From an uncultured Bacilli bacterium (GTDB lineage: Bacteria; Bacillota_I; Bacilli_A; RF39; UBA660), in the NCBI GenBank assembly GCA_944350145.1, contig CALVOC010000004.1:1-32063 (forward strand): a DNA stretch of 32,063 bases, read 5' to 3'. Below the pieces are notes generated by a model. That model searched no databases and was not told the DNA's origin. It saw only the letters and a program-made list of their open reading frames with translations. This document shows positions 2,455-28,572 of the stretch, piece after piece (positions within the stretch are counted from its first letter, which is position 1; every line of letters begins with the position of its first letter). A program made the translations under genes and the position numbers.

Positions 2455-4389
2455 ATGTTTGAAATACAAAATAGGCGATATACAGGGAATAAATTTAAAC
2501 TAATGGATTGGATTTCAAAATTGCTTAAAGAAAACTGTCCTGATTGTCATTCGTTTTTTGATGTTTTCGCTGGTACAGGGTGTGTATCTGACTATTTATT
2601 TGATGATTACAATAGAATTGTTTTAAATGATTTCTTATACTCAAGTAATGTTATCTTTAATGCTTTCTTTTTAAATGAAGAATATGATTCTAAAAAATTG
2701 AACAAAATAAAAGAAAAATATTTAGAAATTCAAGCATCTAAAATTCAAGAAAATTATGTATCTACAAATTTTGGAAATAAATATTTTAATAATAACGATG
2801 CCAAAAAAATAGGATATATAAGAGAAGATATAGAAAAAAAATATAAGAATAAAGAAATAAATTTTAAAGAATATACAATTTTAATTTCCTCTTTATTATA
2901 TTCGTTAGATAAAGTGGCAAATACTTGTGGTCATTATGATGCTTACAGAAAAGGAACTATGATAAAAGAATCTTTCGTGTTTGACTTAATAAAACCTAGA
3001 AAATACAATCAAAAAAAATTAGTAGAAATTTATAGAAAAGATTCTAATGAGCTAGTAAAAGAAATTAAATGTGATATAGCTTATATTGATCCTCCTTATA
3101 ATTCACGCCAATATAGTAGATTTTATCATGTATTAGAAAATATAGCCCAATGGAAAAAACCGGAGTTATATGGAGTTGCAATGAAACCTAAAGAAGAAAA
3201 TATGTCTGAATATTGTAAATCATCTGCTCCAATTGTTTTTAATGATTTAATTCAAAATTTACAAGCCAAATATATTGTTGTATCCTATAATAATACATAT
3301 GATTCTAAAAGTCATTCATCAAAAAATAAGATTACTCTTGAAGAAATAAGAACAATTTTATCGAGTAAAGGAAAAACAAAAATATATGAGAAAAAATATA
3401 AAGCTTTTACTACAGGTAAAACCGAATTAAATGATCATAAAGAATTCATATTTATTACTAAAGTAAAACCGAATATTAAAAAAGAAATTTCCTATCGATC
3501 TCCGTTATTTTATGTAGGAGATAAATATAAGTTGATGCCAGAAATTAAAAAATACATGCCAACTAAAATAGATAATTATATAGAGCCATTCGTAGGAGGA
3601 GGAAGTTCTTTTTTAAATGTGAAGGCAAATCATTATTATGTAAATGATATTGATTCAGCAATTATACGTATTCATAAATTGTTACATGATTATGCGAAAG
3701 ATAAGAATAAATTTTTTGAAAAAGCTTTTTCAATTATAAAACATTATGGACTGTCATGTTCATACAATGGCCATTTAGTTCCAGAAGAATTAAAAGAGAA
3801 ATATAAAAAAACCTACTATGCTAAATACAATAAAGAGCAATACTTAAACTTAAGAAATGATTACAATAAAAATAAAAAAGATACTATGAAATTGTATTTA
3901 CTACTCATCTATGGATTTAATCATATGACAAGGTTTAATGCAAAAGGCGAATTTAATTTGCCTGTAGGAAACGTTGACTTTAATAGTAACGTATATAATT
4001 CATTAAATTATTATTTTGATTATATAAAAGAAATTGATATAAACTATTTTAATATGGATTATCAGGAATTTATTAAATCATTAAAAATAGGAAAGAATGA
4101 TTATGTTTTATTAGATCCGCCATATTTAATTAGTGAAAGTGAGTACAATAAAATATGGGATGAACAAAAAGAAAAAGAATTATACAAATTATTAGATGAT
4201 CTTGATAAAAAAGGAATAAGATTTGGAATCACAAATTTGATGTATCATAAAGGAAAAGAAAACAAGATATTTAAAAACTGGTCTAAAAAATATCATGCAT
4301 ATGAACTGACAAGCAATTATATAAGTTTTAATGATAATACCATAAAAGTAAATTCTAAGGAGGTGTTTGTTACTAATTATGAAAAATAA
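2455..4389 (+). CDS. Two-domain DNA N6-adenine methyltransferase (FokI-type, D12 class fusion)
   Basis: 644 aa with two complete adenine-methylase domains. Domain 1 starts RRYTGNKFKLMDWI, has the SAM-binding FFDVFAGTGCVSDYLF (about residues 34-49) and catalytic DPPY at D212 (IDPPYNSRQYSRFYHVLENI). Domain 2 restarts with SPLFYVGDKYKLMPEI near residue 345, has EPFVGGGSSF and a second DPPY at D554. This is the architecture of M.FokI, in which each half methylates one strand of an asymmetric site; it fits the partner endonuclease. GGAGG at 2440-2444 precedes the start. A three-codon ATG frame (MNV, 2451-2462) overlaps the start out of frame and may lower initiation. The last 11 bases overlap the endonuclease gene, so the two are translationally coupled. 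The recognition sequence cannot be read from the protein. Confidence 0.9.
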   Translation: MFEIQNRRYTGNKFKLMDWISKLLKENCPDCHSFFDVFAGTGCVSDYLFDDYNRIVLNDFLYSSNVIFNAFFLNEEYDSKKLNKIKEKYLEIQASKIQENYVSTNFGNKYFNNNDAKKIGYIREDIEKKYKNKEINFKEYTILISSLLYSLDKVANTCGHYDAYRKGTMIKESFVFDLIKPRKYNQKKLVEIYRKDSNELVKEIKCDIAYIDPPYNSRQYSRFYHVLENIAQWKKPELYGVAMKPKEENMSEYCKSSAPIVFNDLIQNLQAKYIVVSYNNTYDSKSHSSKNKITLEEIRTILSSKGKTKIYEKKYKAFTTGKTELNDHKEFIFITKVKPNIKKEISYRSPLFYVGDKYKLMPEIKKYMPTKIDNYIEPFVGGGSSFLNVKANHYYVNDIDSAIIRIHKLLHDYAKDKNKFFEKAFSIIKHYGLSCSYNGHLVPEELKEKYKKTYYAKYNKEQYLNLRNDYNKNKKDTMKLYLLLIYGFNHMTRFNAKGEFNLPVGNVDFNSNVYNSLNYYFDYIKEIDINYFNMDYQEFIKSLKIGKNDYVLLDPPYLISESEYNKIWDEQKEKELYKLLDDLDKKGIRFGITNLMYHKGKENKIFKNWSKKYHAYELTSNYISFNDNTIKVNSKEVFVTNYEK

Positions 4390-5944
4390 GAAAAGAAAAA
4401 GAGATCCAAAATATAAACAATTATCCTTTGAAACAGCCATAAGAAATCCAGAAAGATATAAAGGAATATTAGAATATATGCAAGACTATCAAGGCATCGT
4501 ATTAAATGACGAAAATTTATTAACCATAGTTTCTGGAATGTATGAAAATGGAATTGTTACGAGTCCAGACTTCGATTTATCAAAATATTCTACAAAAGAA
4601 GAAATTTATAATTCAGTAATTTCGATTAATTCAACAAGAAAAGCCGATGGAGGCTTTCCAAAAGGCTACCAGTCAAGATTTTGGACATATATGCGAACTT
4701 TATCGGAATTTGGATTTGTTTATGCAAGATATAATAAGCCTTTTAAAATTGGAGATGTTGGATTAAAATTTATAGAAAATAAAATTGATGCCCAAGAAGC
4801 TTTTTCAATTCAAGCAATTAAGTATAACAGAAGATCTCCATATAAAAATGTTTTAAATGATTTCAATTATTTTAGGTTTATTATAAAAGTATTAAAAAAA
4901 TTGGATTCTGAAAACAAAAAATTAAGTTATAATCAATTTATAATTTCTCTTTTTAGTGAAGATGGTAATGTGGATGAATTTATAAAAATAATAAAAAATA
5001 ATAAATTTCCAACTCCAGATTCAGTATATTCTTATCTAGAAAAAATATATGGAAAAATAAATAAAAAATCTACTGTGTTAGGAGATTATCCAGACGTGGT
5101 TTTAAGAATGTTAAGAATTACTGGATTTGTCAACATCCTTAATAAAGGAATCACATTAATTGAATTAAATCAAAGAAATTTAAATTATATTAATAGCTTG
5201 CTAAAATTAGATTATAAACTTACAAAAAAAGAAAAAAATGTAGATATTGCTTATTTTAATAAAATCAACCAGATAACTAGAAATGAAATGTTGCTCATTG
5301 AAAAAAATAGAAAAGAAGTCTTTCATATTGTAGATTACAATGTTGTTTTAAGCAAAATTATTGAAGAAAACAATGTTACTAAAGAAGAACTTTTAGAAGA
5401 TATTCAAAACTTATGTTTTACGAAAAAAAGAAATGAGAAATTCAAATATATTGATGAACCGTTGCAATTTGAGTTTTATATATCTTTACTAGTATATTTA
5501 ATTTATGGTAATGAATATTCCGTAAATCCGAATTATAAAACAGATGATTATGGGATGCCAATTTCTCATGCACCAGGAAAAACTGGAGATATTGAAGTAT
5601 TAGGCCCAGGGAAGTATTGGCTATTAGAAGTTACTCTAATAAGAAATAAAACACAGCAAATAAATAATGAAACAGTAAATCTTTTTCGGCATATAGATAA
5701 TAGCAAATGGGAAGAAAAATATATGTCATTAATTGCTCCTGTTGTTCATGAAGATACCGTTAGATTATATAATTCGCTAGTAATTGAATATTTAATAGAA
5801 AAAAGAGATAAATTTTATGCAAAACCCTATGATATTAATGAATTTATAGAAAGTTGTAAAGTGAAAAATAATTTTGAAGACATGATAATTTACACCAAAA
5901 AATTAAAAGAAAAAGCATTGACTGAATTAATGAAAGAAATATAA
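4379..5944 (+). CDS. AlwI/PleI-family type IIS restriction endonuclease
   Basis: 521 aa from ATG 4379. The N-terminus (FETAIRNPERYKGILEYMQ) and length fit the RE_AlwI family, which includes AlwI, MlyI, PleI and the nicking enzyme N.BstNBI. The nuclease core is in the C-terminal third: GKTGDIEVLGPGKYWLLEVT has D404 and E417 at PD-(D/E)XK positions, with the EVT variant typical of this family instead of EXK. The N-terminal two thirds probably bind DNA. A TTG at 4367 is an alternative start, but it lies only a few bases from AAGGAGG (4357-4363), while ATG 4379 lies about 15 nt away and starts MKNKKRKRDPKYKQ. It overlaps the methylase by 11 bp. The pair should form a complete R-M system cutting outside an asymmetric site. 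No frameshift or in-frame stop is seen. Confidence 0.85.
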   Translation: MKNKKRKRDPKYKQLSFETAIRNPERYKGILEYMQDYQGIVLNDENLLTIVSGMYENGIVTSPDFDLSKYSTKEEIYNSVISINSTRKADGGFPKGYQSRFWTYMRTLSEFGFVYARYNKPFKIGDVGLKFIENKIDAQEAFSIQAIKYNRRSPYKNVLNDFNYFRFIIKVLKKLDSENKKLSYNQFIISLFSEDGNVDEFIKIIKNNKFPTPDSVYSYLEKIYGKINKKSTVLGDYPDVVLRMLRITGFVNILNKGITLIELNQRNLNYINSLLKLDYKLTKKEKNVDIAYFNKINQITRNEMLLIEKNRKEVFHIVDYNVVLSKIIEENNVTKEELLEDIQNLCFTKKRNEKFKYIDEPLQFEFYISLLVYLIYGNEYSVNPNYKTDDYGMPISHAPGKTGDIEVLGPGKYWLLEVTLIRNKTQQINNETVNLFRHIDNSKWEEKYMSLIAPVVHEDTVRLYNSLVIEYLIEKRDKFYAKPYDINEFIESCKVKNNFEDMIIYTKKLKEKALTELMKEI

Positions 5945-23056: not shown

Positions 23057-23085
23057 AAATGTTCGAAATTTTGAACATTTTTTTT
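23056..23085 (+). terminator. Intrinsic terminator of the flippase gene
   Basis: AAAATGTTC pairs with GAACATTTT (9-bp stem, 8-nt loop) and runs into eight T. It starts in the flippase stop codon and sets off the downstream operon. Confidence 0.88.
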
Positions 23086-23145
23086 AAACTTTTTTTTACT
23101 TTGGTGTATCTAACTATTAGAGAGCAAGGAGTGAAAGTATTTTTT

Positions 23146-23925
23146 ATGAAATTAAAAAAAAGCATAGTAATTATAGGAATATTGTTGATTGCTGGGATAA
23201 TTAGTGGATTTGTAGTTTTTAAAAACAGAAATATGCTTCCTGCCGCGGTAGTAGATTCTCCAAATGATGGAGAAAAAATAGAATATGATTATTCCAAATC
23301 CGTTTCAGAATGTGTAGCTATGGAAGATGAAATATATTTTAAAGATGCTGTTTTTGTAGGAGATTCTAGAACCGAGGGATTCATGAATTTAACTCATCTT
23401 GATGCTACCTTTTATACCCATATTGGACTTACGGTAGACACTTTTTTTACTGATCCAATTGTTTATATAAGCGGAGAAAAAGTTTCGATTAAAGAAGCAC
23501 TTAAAAAGACAACATTTAAAAAGGTATATATTATGTTAGGAATTAACGAGACAGGTTGGCAGTATAGTGAACTTTTTAAAAGAAAATATGGTGAGATAAT
23601 CGATACGATTCGTAAAATAAATCCAAATGTTCTAATTTATATTGAATCTATTTTACCAGTTAGTCAAGAAATTTCTGAGACACATTCTTATATTAAACAA
23701 GAAAAAATCAATGAATATAATACTCTTTTACAAGACTTAGCTAGGGAAAAAGAGGTTTATTATATTGATATCGCGTCATCGATGAAAAATGAAGAAGGAT
23801 TTTTACCAACAGATGCCGCGATAGATGGAATTCATTTAAATAAAGAATATGCTTTAAAATGGTTGCAGTACTTAAAGAATCATTATATAGTAGAAAATAC
23901 TCAAAAAGGAGATAATGAACAATGA
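23146..23925 (+). CDS. Membrane-anchored SGNH/GDSL hydrolase-like protein
   Basis: 259 aa from ATG 23146. An N-terminal membrane segment (IVIIGILLIAGIISGFVVF) anchors an extracytoplasmic SGNH domain: block I FVGDSRTEGF with S74, block III MLGINETGW with the oxyanion Asn, and block V DGIHLN with D227 and H230. The catalytic triad is thus complete. SGNH proteins of cell walls are esterases or O-acyltransferases. The reading frame runs back to 23053, but the flippase terminator (23056-23085) lies inside that part and AAGGAGTGA is 11 nt before ATG 23146. It heads the six-gene cassette and overlaps the lipoprotein gene by 4 bp (ATGA). It may add or remove acyl groups on a wall polymer. Confidence 0.88.
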   Translation: MKLKKSIVIIGILLIAGIISGFVVFKNRNMLPAAVVDSPNDGEKIEYDYSKSVSECVAMEDEIYFKDAVFVGDSRTEGFMNLTHLDATFYTHIGLTVDTFFTDPIVYISGEKVSIKEALKKTTFKKVYIMLGINETGWQYSELFKRKYGEIIDTIRKINPNVLIYIESILPVSQEISETHSYIKQEKINEYNTLLQDLAREKEVYYIDIASSMKNEEGFLPTDAAIDGIHLNKEYALKWLQYLKNHYIVENTQKGDNEQ

Positions 23926-24362
23926 AAAAAATTCTAACTATGCTTCTGTGCTTCCTTTGTATGACAGGATGTAAAGCTGAAAACAATTCCAATATCGATA
24001 TCCAAAAATTAAATGAGGAATTAAGTCATAAAATTGTTTTTGAAGATGAACTTACGTTATATGAAGGAAATATTAAAAATCTTTATGGAATTGACTTTGC
24101 AAAATCCTCAATTGTTTATGTAGGAAGTGGAGCAACAGCTGAAGAGTTTGCTCTTTTAGAATTTGAAAATACGGAAGAAACAGAAAAAGCTTATAACCTT
24201 TTAAATGAATATATAGAACAAAGAAAAGAAAGCTATCAAACATATAATCCTGAAGAAGCCAAAAGATTAGAACAAGCCATTTTAAAAAAGAAAGATAAGA
24301 TTGTCTTACTTTGTGTATCCAATGATGAAAATGCTTTAAAAATTATTAATGAGTATTTATGA
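23922..24362 (+). CDS. DUF4358-family lipoprotein
   Basis: 146 aa. The signal peptide MKKILTMLLCFLCMTGC ends in a lipobox (CMTGC), so C17 should be lipid-modified and the protein surface-tethered. The mature domain carries the DUF4358 pattern: LYGIDFAKSSIVYVGSGATA followed by EEFALLEFENTEET, a helical EQRKESYQTYNPEEAKRLEQ stretch and DKIVLLCVSNDENALKII. The function of DUF4358 is not known. It joins the SGNH gene and the sigma factor gene through ATGA overlaps on both sides, so it belongs to the same operon and perhaps to the same envelope process. Confidence 0.85.
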   Translation: MKKILTMLLCFLCMTGCKAENNSNIDIQKLNEELSHKIVFEDELTLYEGNIKNLYGIDFAKSSIVYVGSGATAEEFALLEFENTEETEKAYNLLNEYIEQRKESYQTYNPEEAKRLEQAILKKKDKIVLLCVSNDENALKIINEYL

Positions 24363-24850
24363 TTGAAATTGCAACAAGAGAAAAAATTTTTGTTGATTTT
24401 ATAAAAGAAAATCAAAATTATTTTTATCAAATTGCCTTTTTTCATGTAAAAGATGAAGATATAGCAATGGATATTGTACAAGAAGCAATAGTAAAAGCAT
24501 TTCAAAAAAGATACACATTAAAAAAAATTGATTTTTTAAAAACTTGGTTTTATCGAATTTTAATCAATGAATGTAATTTATATTTTCGTAAAAATAAAAA
24601 ACTGATTTTTATTCCTGACTACGAAGAATATGAAAGTAAATTATCTAGTAAAGAGCAAATAGAAACAAACGATTTATATGATGCAATTGATGGATTAACA
24701 CCGAAACTAAAAACAATTGTAATTTTATTTTTTTTTGAAGGAATGAAATTAGAGGAGATATCTAAAGTTACTCATACTCATTTAAGTACTGTAAAATCAA
24801 GACTATATAAGGCTTTAGATATATTAAAAATGAAAATGGAGGTTATATGA
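24359..24850 (+). CDS. ECF sigma factor (SigV-like)
   Basis: 163 aa, normal for an ECF sigma factor. Region 2 spans about residues 10-75 (YFYQIAFFHVKDEDIAMDIV, QEAIVKAFQKRYTLKKIDFL, KTWFYRILINEC) and region 4 about 105-160 (LTPKLKTIVILFFFEGMKLE, then EISKVTHTHLSTVKSRLYKA). Regions 1 and 3 are absent, as expected. Its partner downstream is an RsiV-like anti-sigma factor, which places it in or near the SigV group. Start and stop overlap neighbours by ATGA. No strong ECF-type promoter was found upstream of the cassette by eye, so autoregulation is inferred from other SigV systems. Confidence 0.92.
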   Translation: MIEIATREKIFVDFIKENQNYFYQIAFFHVKDEDIAMDIVQEAIVKAFQKRYTLKKIDFLKTWFYRILINECNLYFRKNKKLIFIPDYEEYESKLSSKEQIETNDLYDAIDGLTPKLKTIVILFFFEGMKLEEISKVTHTHLSTVKSRLYKALDILKMKMEVI

Positions 24851-25671
24851 AAAAATATAATGCAAAAGTAAAAATTCCTAAAGAATTAGACTTGCGAGTA
24901 GATGAAGCAATATATGAAGGGCTAAATTCTAAGAGAAAAGAGAGTCCTATAAAAAAAATATCCATTGGAGTCATAATGTTTTTTGGAATTTTTATTACCC
25001 TTTTAAATACAGTTCCAGTATTTGCGAAAACGGTTTATAAAATCGATATCATAGGAGACATTTGTCGTTTTTTTACTTTTCGTGAATACAAATATGAAGA
25101 TAATGTACAATACATAAATATTCATATACCAGAATTTCATTATACAGAGGATTCTTCTTTAGAAAATCGAATTAATTTAGAAATCAGTCGAGTTGTTCAT
25201 GAACAGTATAATGATGCTAAAGAAAATGCCTTAGAATATTATGAAGCTTTTATAGCTACAGGTGGAAAAAAAGAAGACTTTAAACCAATTGAAGTAAACA
25301 TTGATTACCAAATTTTTTCTCTTTCCTCTCGAGTTGTTTCTTTTGTTTTAACAAAAACAGAATCTTTTTCAAATGCCTACACAACGAATTATTATTACAA
25401 TATTGATTTAGAAACAGGTCGTGATTTTTCATTAAAAGAACTATTAGGTTCAGATTATAAAAAAATTATTGAAATAAGTATTCAAAAAGAGATTGCTACT
25501 TGGGATAAAGAAAAACAACAATTGCTTTTTCAAACAAATTCCATTTCAGACTATATTAAAGAAAATCAACCATTTTATATTAATGAAAATAATCAAATTG
25601 TCGTAGTTTTTGAAAAATATGAAATTGGTGTCGGAACATTAGGACAAGTAGAATTTATAGTTGAACCCTAG
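24847..25671 (+). CDS. RsiV-like anti-sigma factor with DUF3298 domain
   Basis: 274 aa. A short cytoplasmic N-terminus (about 1-35) precedes one membrane segment (ISIGVIMFFGIFITLLNTVP). The extracytoplasmic part has YINIHIPEFHYTEDSSLENR, a helical DUF4163-like region, and a C-terminal DUF3298 domain: YYNIDLETGRDFSLKELLGS, then FYINENNQIVVVFEKYEIGV. This is the layout of RsiV, which holds SigV at the membrane and releases it after binding lysozyme and being cleaved. Lysozyme binding by this protein is inferred, not seen. The gene overlaps the sigma gene by 4 bp and ends 2 nt before the MBOAT gene. Confidence 0.88.
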   Translation: MKKYNAKVKIPKELDLRVDEAIYEGLNSKRKESPIKKISIGVIMFFGIFITLLNTVPVFAKTVYKIDIIGDICRFFTFREYKYEDNVQYINIHIPEFHYTEDSSLENRINLEISRVVHEQYNDAKENALEYYEAFIATGGKKEDFKPIEVNIDYQIFSLSSRVVSFVLTKTESFSNAYTTNYYYNIDLETGRDFSLKELLGSDYKKIIEISIQKEIATWDKEKQQLLFQTNSISDYIKENQPFYINENNQIVVVFEKYEIGVGTLGQVEFIVEP

Positions 25672-25673
25672 AA

Positions 25674-27068
25674 ATGTTGTTTAGTAGTTTCATTTTTCTT
25701 TTCTTTTTTTTACCAATAACTGTTCTATGTTATTATCTTGTTCCTAAAAAAATCCGAAATATTTTACTTCTTCTAGCTAGTATCTTCTTTTATATGTGGG
25801 GAGAACCAGTTTATATTCTAATTATGTTTTTCTCAACCTTTTTTGATTACATAAATGGGCTTTTAATTGAATACTTTCGTAAAAAAAATCACAAAAATTT
25901 ACCTAAAATCGTTTTAATTATTTCAGTAATTGGAAATCTAGGAATTTTATTTTTCTTTAAATATAGCTCTTTTTTAATAGAGAATATAGAAGCACTTTTC
26001 CACTTTTCTATAGAATTCCCAGAAATTATCATGCCAATTGGAATTTCTTTTTATACATTTCAAACGATGTCTTATACAATCGATGTGTATAAAGGAGAAG
26101 TTCCAGTTCAAAAAAATCTTTTAGATTTTGCAACCTATGTATTGTTATTTCCTCAACTAATTGCCGGGCCGATTGTAAAATATCAAGATGTATACAAAGA
26201 TTTAAAAGAAAGAAAAGAATCTTTTGAAAAAATGAGTTCAGGTATTAAAAGATTTATTGTCGGACTTTTTAAAAAGGTGGTTTTAGCTAATTCTATTGGA
26301 GAAATTTTTGAAGCTATTACTCTTATTCCATTAGAGGAATTATCTGTACTTACGGCTTGGTTAGGAGCAATTGCTTATACATTTCAAATATACTATGATT
26401 TTTCTGGATATAGCGATATGGCAATTGGTCTTGGAAAAATGTTTGGTTTTACCTTCAAAGAAAATTTTAATTTCCCTTACTTAGCGACAACCGTAACCGA
26501 TTTTTGGCGTAGATGGCATATTTCCTTATCTTCTTGGTTTAAAGAATATGTGTATATTCCACTAGGAGGAAACAAAAAACATCAATCCATAAATTTACTC
26601 ATTGTTTGGACACTTACAGGCCTATGGCACGGGGCAAGTTGGAACTTTGTGGTTTGGGGAATATATTTTGGAGTATTATTAATTCTTGAAAAAAAATTCT
26701 GGTTAAAAAAACAAATCAAAATTTCACCTTTTTGGCAACATATTTATACTATGTTTTTAGTAATAATTGGCTGGGTTTTCTTTTTCTCACCGAATCTAAC
26801 AGCAGCATTGCAATACCTTGCTAAAATGTTTGGAATTCACGCTCCTTTATATGATTCGTATACTATATATTTTTGGATTTCCAGTGGTGTTTTATTAATC
26901 CTTTGCATAGTTCTTTCAACAAAAATTTTGAAAAAAGGAATTTTAAAAATAAAAAACTCAAAATTTTTCATTCCATGTTCTTATCTAGGCTATTTAGGAC
27001 TTTTTGTAATTACCCTTTCTTTTTTAGCAGGTGCTACATATAATCCATTTTTATATTTTCGATTTTGA
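25674..27068 (+). CDS. MBOAT-family membrane O-acyltransferase (AlgI/PatA-like)
   Basis: 464 aa polytopic membrane protein. MLFSSFIFLFFFLPITVLCY followed by YLVPKKIRNILLLLASIFFY-MWGEP is the standard start of AlgI-type MBOAT proteins. The catalytic region has YLATTVTDFWRRWHISLSSW and LLIVWTLTGLWHGASWNFVV, holding the two conserved histidines, plus YIPLGGNKK. Family members carry acyl groups across the membrane to an extracytoplasmic partner acting on alginate, peptidoglycan or other polymers. DltB is an alternative, but no dltA, dltC or dltD is near and the partner next door is AlgX-like. It starts 2 nt after rsiV with a weak ribosome binding site, so it is translationally coupled to the sensor. 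Confidence 0.93.
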   Translation: MLFSSFIFLFFFLPITVLCYYLVPKKIRNILLLLASIFFYMWGEPVYILIMFFSTFFDYINGLLIEYFRKKNHKNLPKIVLIISVIGNLGILFFFKYSSFLIENIEALFHFSIEFPEIIMPIGISFYTFQTMSYTIDVYKGEVPVQKNLLDFATYVLLFPQLIAGPIVKYQDVYKDLKERKESFEKMSSGIKRFIVGLFKKVVLANSIGEIFEAITLIPLEELSVLTAWLGAIAYTFQIYYDFSGYSDMAIGLGKMFGFTFKENFNFPYLATTVTDFWRRWHISLSSWFKEYVYIPLGGNKKHQSINLLIVWTLTGLWHGASWNFVVWGIYFGVLLILEKKFWLKKQIKISPFWQHIYTMFLVIIGWVFFFSPNLTAALQYLAKMFGIHAPLYDSYTIYFWISSGVLLILCIVLSTKILKKGILKIKNSKFFIPCSYLGYLGLFVITLSFLAGATYNPFLYFRF

Positions 27069-27077
27069 GGTGATTAA

Positions 27078-28166
27078 GTGAAAAAGTGGGATAAATATTT
27101 TACAATACTTTTTTTTAGCATCCTTGTTTTCTTAGCAGTTGGAATCTTTTTTGAAGCAGAAGATTTTTCATACAAAGAAAATCGGTATTTGGCTGAGTAC
27201 CCAAAATTTTCATGGGATAAATTTTATGACAGCAGTTATATGACAGAAGTAGAAGAATTTATTGATGACCATTTATGGGAAAGAGAAGGGTGGATTTATT
27301 TAAAAAATTCATTAGAGAGCATTTCAGGGAAAAGAGATATAGAAAATGTTTATTTAGGAAAAGAAGGATATTTATTTGAAAAAATGACTTCAAGTAATTT
27401 TAACTATGAAAACTTCAAGCAAAATATTCAAATTATTGAAGAATTTTCTAAAAAATATCCAAATACTTCCTTTCTTTTAGTTCCTTCAAAAGGATATATT
27501 TTAAAAGACAAACTCCATTCATTCGCCCCATATATTGATGAAGAAGAACTTTTCAAAATAAGTAAACAAAAAAGTTTTCAATTTATAGATGTCGTGCCAA
27601 CGTTTTTAGAACATCAAAGTGAATACATATATTATAAAACGGACCACCATTGGACAACTTTAGGTGCTTTTTATGCTTATCAAACATGGAAAAAGCAGGC
27701 TTTTAAAGAAGACTATACTTGGACTTTAAAGAGCGATAATTTTAAGGGCTCATTAGATTCAAAAGTTTTAGGAATAAACAATACACAGGATGAAATTTGG
27801 ATTGCAAACGACAAAAGTGATGACGAACTTATTAAAAATTCAACAAGAGATTTGTATGATTTTGAAAAACTTAAAGAAAAAGACCAATATCAATTATTTT
27901 TAGGAGGAAATACTGGGGAAGTTACTTTTGAGACAAATCAAAACAACAAAAAGTCCTTACTTTTGTTTAAAGATTCCTTTGCGAATAGTTTCATTCCATT
28001 TTTAATAAAAGACTATCAATACATTTATATCATAGATTTACGTTATTTTAACCAAGATATAGCTTCATATATAGAAAAAGTGCATCCGACAGAAATTCTA
28101 TTTTTATATGGAATAAATAACTTAACAGACGACTTAGCTATTCATAAATTACAAAATATGGAATAA
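27078..28166 (+). CDS. DHHW-family (AlgX/AlgJ-like) acyltransferase partner of the MBOAT protein
   Basis: 362 aa. An N-terminal signal anchor (YFTILFFSILVFLAVGIFFE) holds an extracytoplasmic SGNH-like domain. The signature is YIYYKTDHHWTTLGAFYAY (DHHW, supplying Asp and His), and the nucleophile block is LLLFKDSFANSFIPFL. ENRYLAEYPKFSWDKFYDS and NVYLGKEGYLFEKM are also typical of DHHW and AlgX/AlgJ proteins. These take acyl groups from the MBOAT protein and place them on a polymer. The start is GTG 27078 with GAGGTGAT overlapping the MBOAT stop. It is last in the cassette. The acceptor (peptidoglycan, teichoic acid or polysaccharide) is unknown. Confidence 0.9.
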   Translation: MKKWDKYFTILFFSILVFLAVGIFFEAEDFSYKENRYLAEYPKFSWDKFYDSSYMTEVEEFIDDHLWEREGWIYLKNSLESISGKRDIENVYLGKEGYLFEKMTSSNFNYENFKQNIQIIEEFSKKYPNTSFLLVPSKGYILKDKLHSFAPYIDEEELFKISKQKSFQFIDVVPTFLEHQSEYIYYKTDHHWTTLGAFYAYQTWKKQAFKEDYTWTLKSDNFKGSLDSKVLGINNTQDEIWIANDKSDDELIKNSTRDLYDFEKLKEKDQYQLFLGGNTGEVTFETNQNNKKSLLLFKDSFANSFIPFLIKDYQYIYIIDLRYFNQDIASYIEKVHPTEILFLYGINNLTDDLAIHKLQNME

Positions 28167-28203
28167 AAAAATTAAAGGAACAAGAAAAAACTTGTTCCTT
28201 TAA
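28167..28203 (-). terminator. Strong hairpin terminator for the minus-strand coiled-coil gene
   Basis: TTAAAGGAACAAG (28172-28184) and CTTGTTCCTTTAA (28191-28203) pair over 13 bp with a 6-nt loop. The T run (TTTTTTT) follows the hairpin on the minus strand only. On the plus strand it is followed by A's, so for the O-acylation operon it is at most a 3' stabilising hairpin. Confidence 0.8.
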
Positions 28204-28230: not shown

Positions 28231-28572
28231 TTATACCATATACATATTTCCATCGGTTTCATAAGTTTCTTTTGTATAATAAGTGGTACCTTCAAGTTTA
28301 TTTAAACGAGCCTCCAAACGGTTGATACTTCTTTCAAGTTTAGCCATTCTACTTTCTAATTCACTTAAAGAAGTGTTAGGTAACCCAGAATTTTGATTTG
28401 GCATAGTATAATTAGGTAAAGGCATTGGCATATTTTGAGCAGCATAAAAACTACTACTAGCCGCGTTCATATTAGGCATACCCATGTTAGGATTCGCCAT
28501 ATTTAAATTAGGCCCAACGGCACTCATATTAAAATTTGAACTTTCAAAAAATGAATTTCGATCTCTTTTCAT
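28231..28572 (-). CDS. Low-complexity Asn/Met/Pro-rich protein with C-terminal coiled coil
   Basis: 113 aa. Residues about 14-65 are a low-complexity stretch of Asn, Met and Pro with near-repeats (NMANPNMGMPNMNAA, MPMPLPNYTMPNQN). Residues about 68-95 form a coiled coil (LSELESRMAKLERSINRLEA), then a Tyr/Thr tail. There is no signal peptide. The makeup recalls coat or scaffold proteins, but no family is recognised. The gene is real: AGAGGAGGAG lies 8 nt before the ATG and its own terminator follows. It is divergent from trmB. Confidence 0.75.
   Translation of the reverse strand: MKRDRNSFFESSNFNMSAVGPNLNMANPNMGMPNMNAASSSFYAAQNMPMPLPNYTMPNQNSGLPNTSLSELESRMAKLERSINRLEARLNKLEGTTYYTKETYETDGNMYMV

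Follow-up and report, generated by a model that had tools for sequence, protein, structure and literature searches.

An uncultured Bacilli bacterium with a sigV-rsiV type operon for envelope acylation that is probably self-regulated

Background

In Bacillus subtilis, the genes sigV, rsiV, oatA and yrhK form one autoregulated operon (PMC8287880), and in Clostridioides difficile the genes pdaV and lbpA lie within the csfV operon, together with an RsiV that carries a VFA signal-peptidase motif (PMC9044953). With respect to surface acylation by separate proteins, PatB1 of Bacillus cereus, a characterised enzyme of the DHHW family, acetylates the secondary wall polysaccharide together with the MBOAT protein PatA1 (PMC9487903), and in PatA the acetyl group is carried by the tyrosine of an acyl-shuttle motif (PMC12148441). 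Here we describe a locus in which genes of both kinds stand in one row. It occupies positions 23146 to 28166 of a stretch of 32,063 nucleotides (nt) from an uncultured Bacilli bacterium (GenBank assembly GCA_944350145.1, contig CALVOC010000004.1; GTDB lineage RF39, UBA660), to which we refer as the window. A first-pass annotation had interpreted the locus as a module for lysozyme sensing and resistance, and had considered the modifiers of known SigV-RsiV systems to be encoded elsewhere. The latter is not the case, as oatA (PMC8287880) and pdaV (PMC9044953) are themselves found in sigV-type operons. Going by its sequence, we consider it likely that the window locus is an operon of the sigV-rsiV type which controls its own expression and serves envelope acylation.

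Results

A six-gene operon with its own predicted promoter

The locus consists of six plus-strand open reading frames (ORFs), in the order SGNH, DUF4358, sigma factor, RsiV-like protein, MBOAT and DHHW (Table 1). Their positions were as first annotated, and so were the junctions, three ATGA overlaps followed by gaps of 2 and 9 nt, all of them exact. Pfam agreed on the families, and the tight spacing bears out the proposal of a single operon. The arrangement exceeds chance, since the identical order was found again in five other genomes (see below).

The motif AAACTTTTT-N14-TCTAA, or a near form of it with constant spacing, precedes the first gene in most clade members for which enough sequence was available. 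In 2.21 Mb of loci the exact motif was matched 18 times and all 18 matches were located upstream of sigV/rsiV operons, as compared to 0 or 1 matches in order-2 shuffles. Where sigV is the first gene (L205, L206, L184, L185 and L222; Clostridium tepidiprofundi, Tepidibacter mesophilus, G322 and G487), the motif before sigV reads CGTCTAA, the -10 form expected of ECF (extracytoplasmic function) promoters. The own genome of the window contained four exact matches, two of which lie inside or antisense to coding genes; the other two precede the window operon and a shorter paralogue on contig C21. Given that these are the only plausible sites, the module looks autoregulated and self-contained, and the shared promoter, itself a prediction, constitutes the best evidence for this. 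A predicted autoregulatory ECF promoter thus lies upstream of the operon, as is typical of sigV-rsiV operons. A wider regulon is not claimed, because the number of one-mismatch matches in the own genome showed no clear excess over a reversed-pattern control (29 versus 24) and the two additional exact matches lie inside or antisense to coding genes. A looser ECF promoter pattern yielded mostly chance matches and was dropped.

The operon had been described as bounded by hairpins on both sides. The upstream hairpin can indeed be read as a terminator, with an A+T content too high for a consensus terminator scan, and an equivalent hairpin with T run is also found ahead of the paralogous promoter (locus L008). 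The downstream hairpin (28172-28203) is as strong as stated (-16.0 kcal/mol). With the T tract located on the minus strand, however, it was assigned to the convergent minus-strand gene at 28231-28572 and not to the operon as a canonical plus-strand terminator.

Table 1. Features of the operon and its promoter region (positions in the window)
Position	Strand	Feature	Evidence and remarks
23061..23085	+	A+T-rich hairpin with T run, probably terminating the MurJ/MATE flippase gene upstream	RNA fold -10.3 kcal/mol; precedes the operon promoter
23086..23113	+	Predicted ECF (SigV-type) promoter, AAACTTTTT-N14-TCTAA	Fixed spacing; conserved motif between the MurJ-like gene terminator and the SGNH start
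23146..23925	+	SGNH (GDSL) acyl-hydrolase/transferase-like protein, membrane-anchored	Pfam PF13472 Lipase_GDSL_2, 8.8e-18; GDS, GINE and DGIH blocks; Shine-Dalgarno AAGGAG at 23126; first gene throughout the clade
23922..24362	+	DUF4358 lipoprotein, lipobox MTGC	Pfam PF14270, 70.1 bits, 2.1e-19
24359..24850	+	ECF sigma factor, SigV-like	Pfam Sigma70_r2 and r4_2; NCBIfam SigV 146 bits, under cut-off
24847..25671	+	RsiV-like membrane anti-sigma/receptor: cytoplasmic N-terminus, transmembrane helix, VFA site-1 motif, PdaC-DUF3298 ectodomain	NCBIfam RsiV 133.5 bits, under cut-off; RsiV 5jen Z 15.2
25674..27068	+	MBOAT O-acyltransferase, PatA/PatA1-like, C-terminal acyl-shuttle FLYFRF	PF03062 105.9 bits, 3.5e-30; WHG histidine and FxYxxF; DltB structures 1e-28
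27078..28166	+	DHHW-family O-acyltransferase, PatB1-like, GTG start	PF14286 88.6 bits, 6.5e-25; B. cereus PatB1 5v8d E 7e-19; DHHW, KDS and DLRY blocks

The six genes recur as a block in distant genomes

A scan of genome contigs with the single window RsiV sequence gave no match; with an RsiV alignment as query, 80 named loci were obtained, which yield no frequencies because they were chosen by RsiV similarity. The complete SGNH-DUF4358-sigma-RsiV-MBOAT-DHHW order was found in five of these loci (L192, L202, L203, L207 and L208), from uncultured Clostridia or Clostridium metagenome-assembled genomes (MAGs). Two others (L195 and L211) hold partial copies, interrupted by contig ends, and L199 and L201 are variants with a second DUF4358 gene ahead of that for MBOAT. 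The co-occurrence of sigma/RsiV genes with an MBOAT-DHHW pair in other genomes, named beforehand as one of the observations on which the module would stand or fall, was therefore found.

Among all sequences collected, the best non-self match of each of the six window proteins was in L207, L208 or L211 and not in another genome of the family, at a G+C content of 42-44% in these loci versus 28% in the window. The trees gave the same picture: the window RsiV forms a clade with that of C21 and those of L207/L208/L211 (support 100/98), and the window MBOAT is sister to those of L207/L208/L211 (support 98-99), with the MBOATs of the same genus in another clade. A single clade of all six-gene MBOATs was not rejected (p-AU 0.59). 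Considering the agreement between best matches and trees, the sequences favour transfer or inheritance of the whole operon as a unit, and the set appears to travel together, as the nearest relatives of all six proteins are Clostridia operons. The idea that sensing is inherited together with modification is thereby corroborated: it fits the six-gene operon in unrelated MAGs, the best relatives and the shared promoter. The possibility that sigma genes were inserted locally into a DUF4358-MBOAT-DHHW operon resident in the family was considered as well and dropped, since the MBOAT tree and the best matches point to the Clostridia six-gene operons.

Within the family an RsiV relative was present in 5 of the 243 genomes, DUF4358 in 52 and MBOAT in 113. 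The usual form is DUF4358-MBOAT-DHHW without a sigma factor, sometimes with SGNH, which makes DUF4358 a common companion of MBOAT-DHHW and not the new component of this module that it had been suggested to be. Two genomes of the same genus (G071 and G200) have a plain DUF4358-MBOAT arrangement. At the site before trmB and a lipoprotein neighbour, where the window has the operon, genome G091 carries MBOAT-DHHW-SGNH-DUF4358 without the sigma pair (L092:3107-8807). The own assembly contains a second SGNH-DUF4358-sigma-RsiV block (G000:C21, L008:11183-13744), with products 67, 68, 86 and 81% identical to those of the window. This block has the same promoter, lacks MBOAT-DHHW and is followed by a gene for an APH-type phosphotransferase; it may represent a paralogue, and a related-strain contig that was binned together is a less likely origin. 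In G001 and G148 the four-gene block is also present and DUF4358-MBOAT-DHHW is located elsewhere.

Other family genomes encode a different ECF sigma factor and a short putative anti-sigma factor directly before DUF4358-MBOAT-DHHW (L093:2-1679, L094:8456-9873, L117:3414-4848 and L119:2516-3959) or directly after it (L157:3057-7396). None of the three short anti-sigma factors tested had a Pfam match. Given these neighbours, sigma control of the acylation operon seems to have arisen on more than one occasion.

Outside the family, a separate RsiV clade (100/100) is associated with the order MBOAT-SGNH-sigma-RsiV and includes Amedibacillus dolichus (L242) and MAGs of Lachnospiraceae and Oscillospiraceae. 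In A. dolichus (L242:5143-12857; L182) this unit is followed by genes for another ECF sigma factor, a DUF4358-like protein, an MBOAT and a DHHW protein, making two consecutive acylation units. In the loci of Paenibacillus and Gottfriedia an AT3 acyltransferase adjoins sigV-rsiV, with an SGNH domain detectable in two of the three (OatA type). In L188:5480-8794, sigV-rsiV is followed by genes for two secreted RsiV-like (LbpA-like) proteins and a polysaccharide deacetylase, which resembles the csfV operon of C. difficile. Since an AT3-SGNH OatA, a polysaccharide deacetylase or an MBOAT-SGNH pair can occur in these sister operons, the modifiers of the sigV-rsiV unit appear to be interchangeable.

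An RsiV-like sensor with an altered lysozyme loop

The sigma protein consists of sigma-70 regions 2 and 4 only (PF04542, 38.9 bits; PF08281, 48 bits), as is characteristic of ECF sigma factors. The product of the next gene matches DUF3298 in Pfam (38.7 bits, 2e-9), and the AlphaFold model of its ectodomain has the RsiV fold: it aligns with B. subtilis RsiV (5jen) over 185 residues with a root-mean-square deviation of 3.4, and also matches other DUF3298 structures. The transmembrane helix is followed by PVFAK, which contains the VFA site-1 (signal-peptidase) motif, and as candidate proteases a RasP-type M50 protease and a pair of signal peptidases are encoded in the own genome. In two Clostridia MAGs sigma factor and RsiV are contained in one ORF of 450 and 446 amino acids, respectively (L197:4071-5423 and L198:4268-5608), with sigma regions 2 and 4, PdaC and DUF3298; this is either a sigma::anti-sigma fusion that arose naturally or the result of a frameshift or stop-loss common to both.

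The lysozyme-contact residues are a different matter. Relative to B. subtilis, the window RsiV has the changes S169A, P259V and Y261T, and with all three important residues altered the proposed lysozyme sensing is not supported. P259 is retained in 90 of 98 RsiV-like proteins, and the combination of V259 and T261 is found in just two of them, those of the window and the C21 paralogue; the sister clade (L207/L208/L211) has C259 and A261. The combination of A169 and an unchanged APGYMG loop is frequent in the clade, which makes the loop change, and not A169, the telling one; the six-gene operons L192, L202 and L203 retain the loop, and the RsiV of G001 has S, P and Y at all three positions. It has been established that the triple mutant S169W/P259A/Y261A of B. 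subtilis RsiV does not bind lysozyme and that the single mutants P259A and Y261A still do, S169A being untried (PMC5014341). As binding survived the replacement of either P259 or Y261 alone, lysozyme binding by the window protein should be called doubtful and not absent.

Acylation enzymes and DUF4358

The DHHW protein scores well above the PF14286 cut-off of 25 bits and carries the PatB1 blocks, namely DHHW (block V), the KDS serine and DLRY (the DxRY block II). The MBOAT has the conserved WHG histidine and the C-terminal acyl-shuttle motif of the bacterial MBOAT acyltransferases, which was present in all 85 family MBOATs examined. The SGNH protein possesses a complete hydrolase triad; among solved structures, esterases (6njc and 7pzg) are closest to it. 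An OatA, in which an AT3 domain is fused to SGNH, is not among the products of the operon; AT3 is absent from the operon and was not found in the own genome (73% complete). The motifs of the three enzymes agree with the earlier suggestion of a complete candidate O-acylation machine. Its role as a peptidoglycan-directed, lysozyme-resistance machine does not follow, as the substrate of the characterised PatB1 is the secondary wall polysaccharide (PMC9487903).

DUF4358 was recognised far above the 25 bits required for PF14270, and its structure model is confident (predicted local distance difference test score 87). Foldseek returned no PDB match under E 0.4 for this model and a profile search against PDB sequences gave chance-level matches only. 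A likeness to the TiME/PknH ectodomains (best with VIA-align, Z ~6) was within the background and no function was drawn from it; in the open-access full texts searched, only a proteomics table was found for DUF4358. Its place after SGNH and before MBOAT is constant with or without the sigma pair, which suggests that it is an accessory of the acylation complex. In L192:6995-7474, L198:3771-4250 and L200:3108-3590 the protein lacks the lipobox cysteine and has an N-terminal transmembrane anchor instead. Because such anchored forms occur in several six-gene and four-gene operons, the lipid anchor is dispensable for the family.

Elsewhere in the window, positions 2455-5944 encode a type II restriction-modification system, which consists of a 644-amino-acid protein whose two halves are D12-class adenine methyltransferases, followed by an AlwI-type restriction endonuclease.

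Discussion

Working model and alternatives

The operon is real and conserved, and it is probably self-regulated. A working model can be built on the observed gene order, motifs and homology, the conservation of operon and promoter and the presence of candidate proteases; its ligand, acyl group, polymer and induction we infer. In the resting cell the sigma factor would be held at the membrane by the RsiV-like protein. An extracellular ligand or damage signal would act on the ectodomain, after which signal peptidase may cleave at the VFA site and the RasP-type protease would free the sigma factor to transcribe its own operon from the predicted promoter. The MBOAT would then move an acyl group from acyl-CoA to the tyrosine of its FLYFRF motif, to be accepted on a serine by SGNH and/or DHHW and passed on to a glycan of the cell surface, either secondary wall polysaccharide or peptidoglycan, with DUF4358 as a probable accessory.

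Several points weigh against a self-regulated acylation operon of the sigV-rsiV type. The sigma factor scores 146.3 bits to SigV (NF053879), the best of all sigma models and below the cut-off of 190 bits, and the anti-sigma factor 133.5 bits to RsiV (NF052658), below that of 250 bits. The promoter is a sequence prediction, and in a genome that is 73% complete regulon members may be missing. Moreover, MBOAT-DHHW is not obligatory, as the C21 paralogue and several relatives carry only SGNH-DUF4358-sigma-RsiV.

The original interpretation, a lysozyme-sensing module that O-acetylates peptidoglycan and so confers resistance, is in line with the RsiV fold and topology, with the lysozyme sensing of the B. 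subtilis and C. difficile homologues and with the intact APGYMG loops of L192, L202 and L203, A169 being common beside such loops. We nonetheless regard it as rather unlikely for the window, given the three substitutions at positions of which P259 is so widely kept, the C259/A261 of the sister clade, the loss of binding in the B. subtilis triple mutant (PMC5014341) and the fact that the characterised DHHW enzyme acetylates a wall polysaccharide and not peptidoglycan. That SGNH would be an esterase, removing acyl groups to balance MBOAT-DHHW in a deacylating or remodelling unit, we hold to be unlikely: the full triad, the esterases among its solved relatives and the occurrence of SGNH-DUF4358 with sigma-RsiV and without MBOAT-DHHW would fit, but in sister sigV operons (L217, L221, L240, L242 and L267) SGNH adjoins MBOAT, the two genes together corresponding to OatA, which indicates transfer rather than hydrolysis.

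An unrelated sigma/anti-sigma pair might also have landed, by chance or recently, in one of the family's ordinary DUF4358-MBOAT-DHHW operons without controlling it. Such operons, with or without SGNH, are widespread in the family without a sigma factor, RsiV relatives are scarce there and the plain form is found in G071 and G200, which belong to the same genus. This explanation is highly improbable when set against the distant MAGs that share the six-gene order and hold the closest relatives of each of the six proteins, the different clade of the same-genus MBOATs and the sigma-type promoter shared ahead of the entire operon.

Within the preferred interpretation as a self-regulated acylation operon, we tentatively put forward a more specific possibility. 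The sensors of the window, the C21 paralogue and L207/L208/L211 might have ceased to recognise c-type lysozyme and instead read another envelope-attacking ligand, or the state of a surface glycan; the operon might then be a mobile, self-inducing defence against another agent and SGNH-DUF4358 a new two-protein acyl-transfer unit.

In a wider sense, sigV-rsiV has repeatedly been joined with differing surface modifiers: OatA, a deacetylase, MBOAT-SGNH, and the combination of SGNH-DUF4358 and MBOAT-DHHW. Unrelated uncultured lineages share this last combination as a single block. DUF4358 gains a regulator, an operon context and a predicted promoter, and the natural series of RsiV proteins with intact and altered lysozyme loops provides material for tests of ligand specificity.

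Comparison with known systems

Like sigV-rsiV-oatA-yrhK of B. subtilis, the window locus combines an ECF sigma factor, a DUF3298 receptor/anti-sigma factor and surface O-acyltransferases in one operon, with an autoregulation that is established there (PMC8287880) and predicted here. It differs in having MBOAT, DHHW and SGNH in place of an AT3-SGNH OatA, in the SGNH-DUF4358 genes that precede the sigma gene and in the altered lysozyme loop of RsiV. The csfV operon of C. difficile (csfV, rsiV, pdaV and lbpA) likewise keeps sensor and wall modifier together and shares the VFA site (PMC9044953); its modifier, however, is a peptidoglycan deacetylase, and MBOAT, DHHW and DUF4358 have not been described for it.

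The MBOAT-DHHW pair corresponds to PatA1/PatB1 of B. cereus, down to the DHHW, KDS and DxRY blocks (PMC9487903), but sits with a co-encoded sigma/anti-sigma pair; the B. cereus substrate is secondary wall polysaccharide. With the MBOAT-SGNH acyl relays PatA/PatB and Dlt the locus shares the C-terminal FxYxxF acyl-shuttle and the MBOAT histidine (PMC12148441), whereas its MBOAT is accompanied by both SGNH and DHHW as partners of the SGNH type, and by DUF4358 in addition. The MBOAT-SGNH-sigV-rsiV operons of Erysipelotrichaceae and Clostridia, such as that of A. dolichus, also encode MBOAT and SGNH together with sigV-rsiV; they belong to a separate RsiV clade, start with the acyltransferase genes and do not include DHHW inside the unit. 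RsiV or an ECF sigma factor mentioned together with MBOAT was not found in the open-access papers searched. Operons in which sigV-rsiV is accompanied by its own modifier are already known; what is new is that MBOAT/SGNH acyltransferases take the place of OatA or PdaV.

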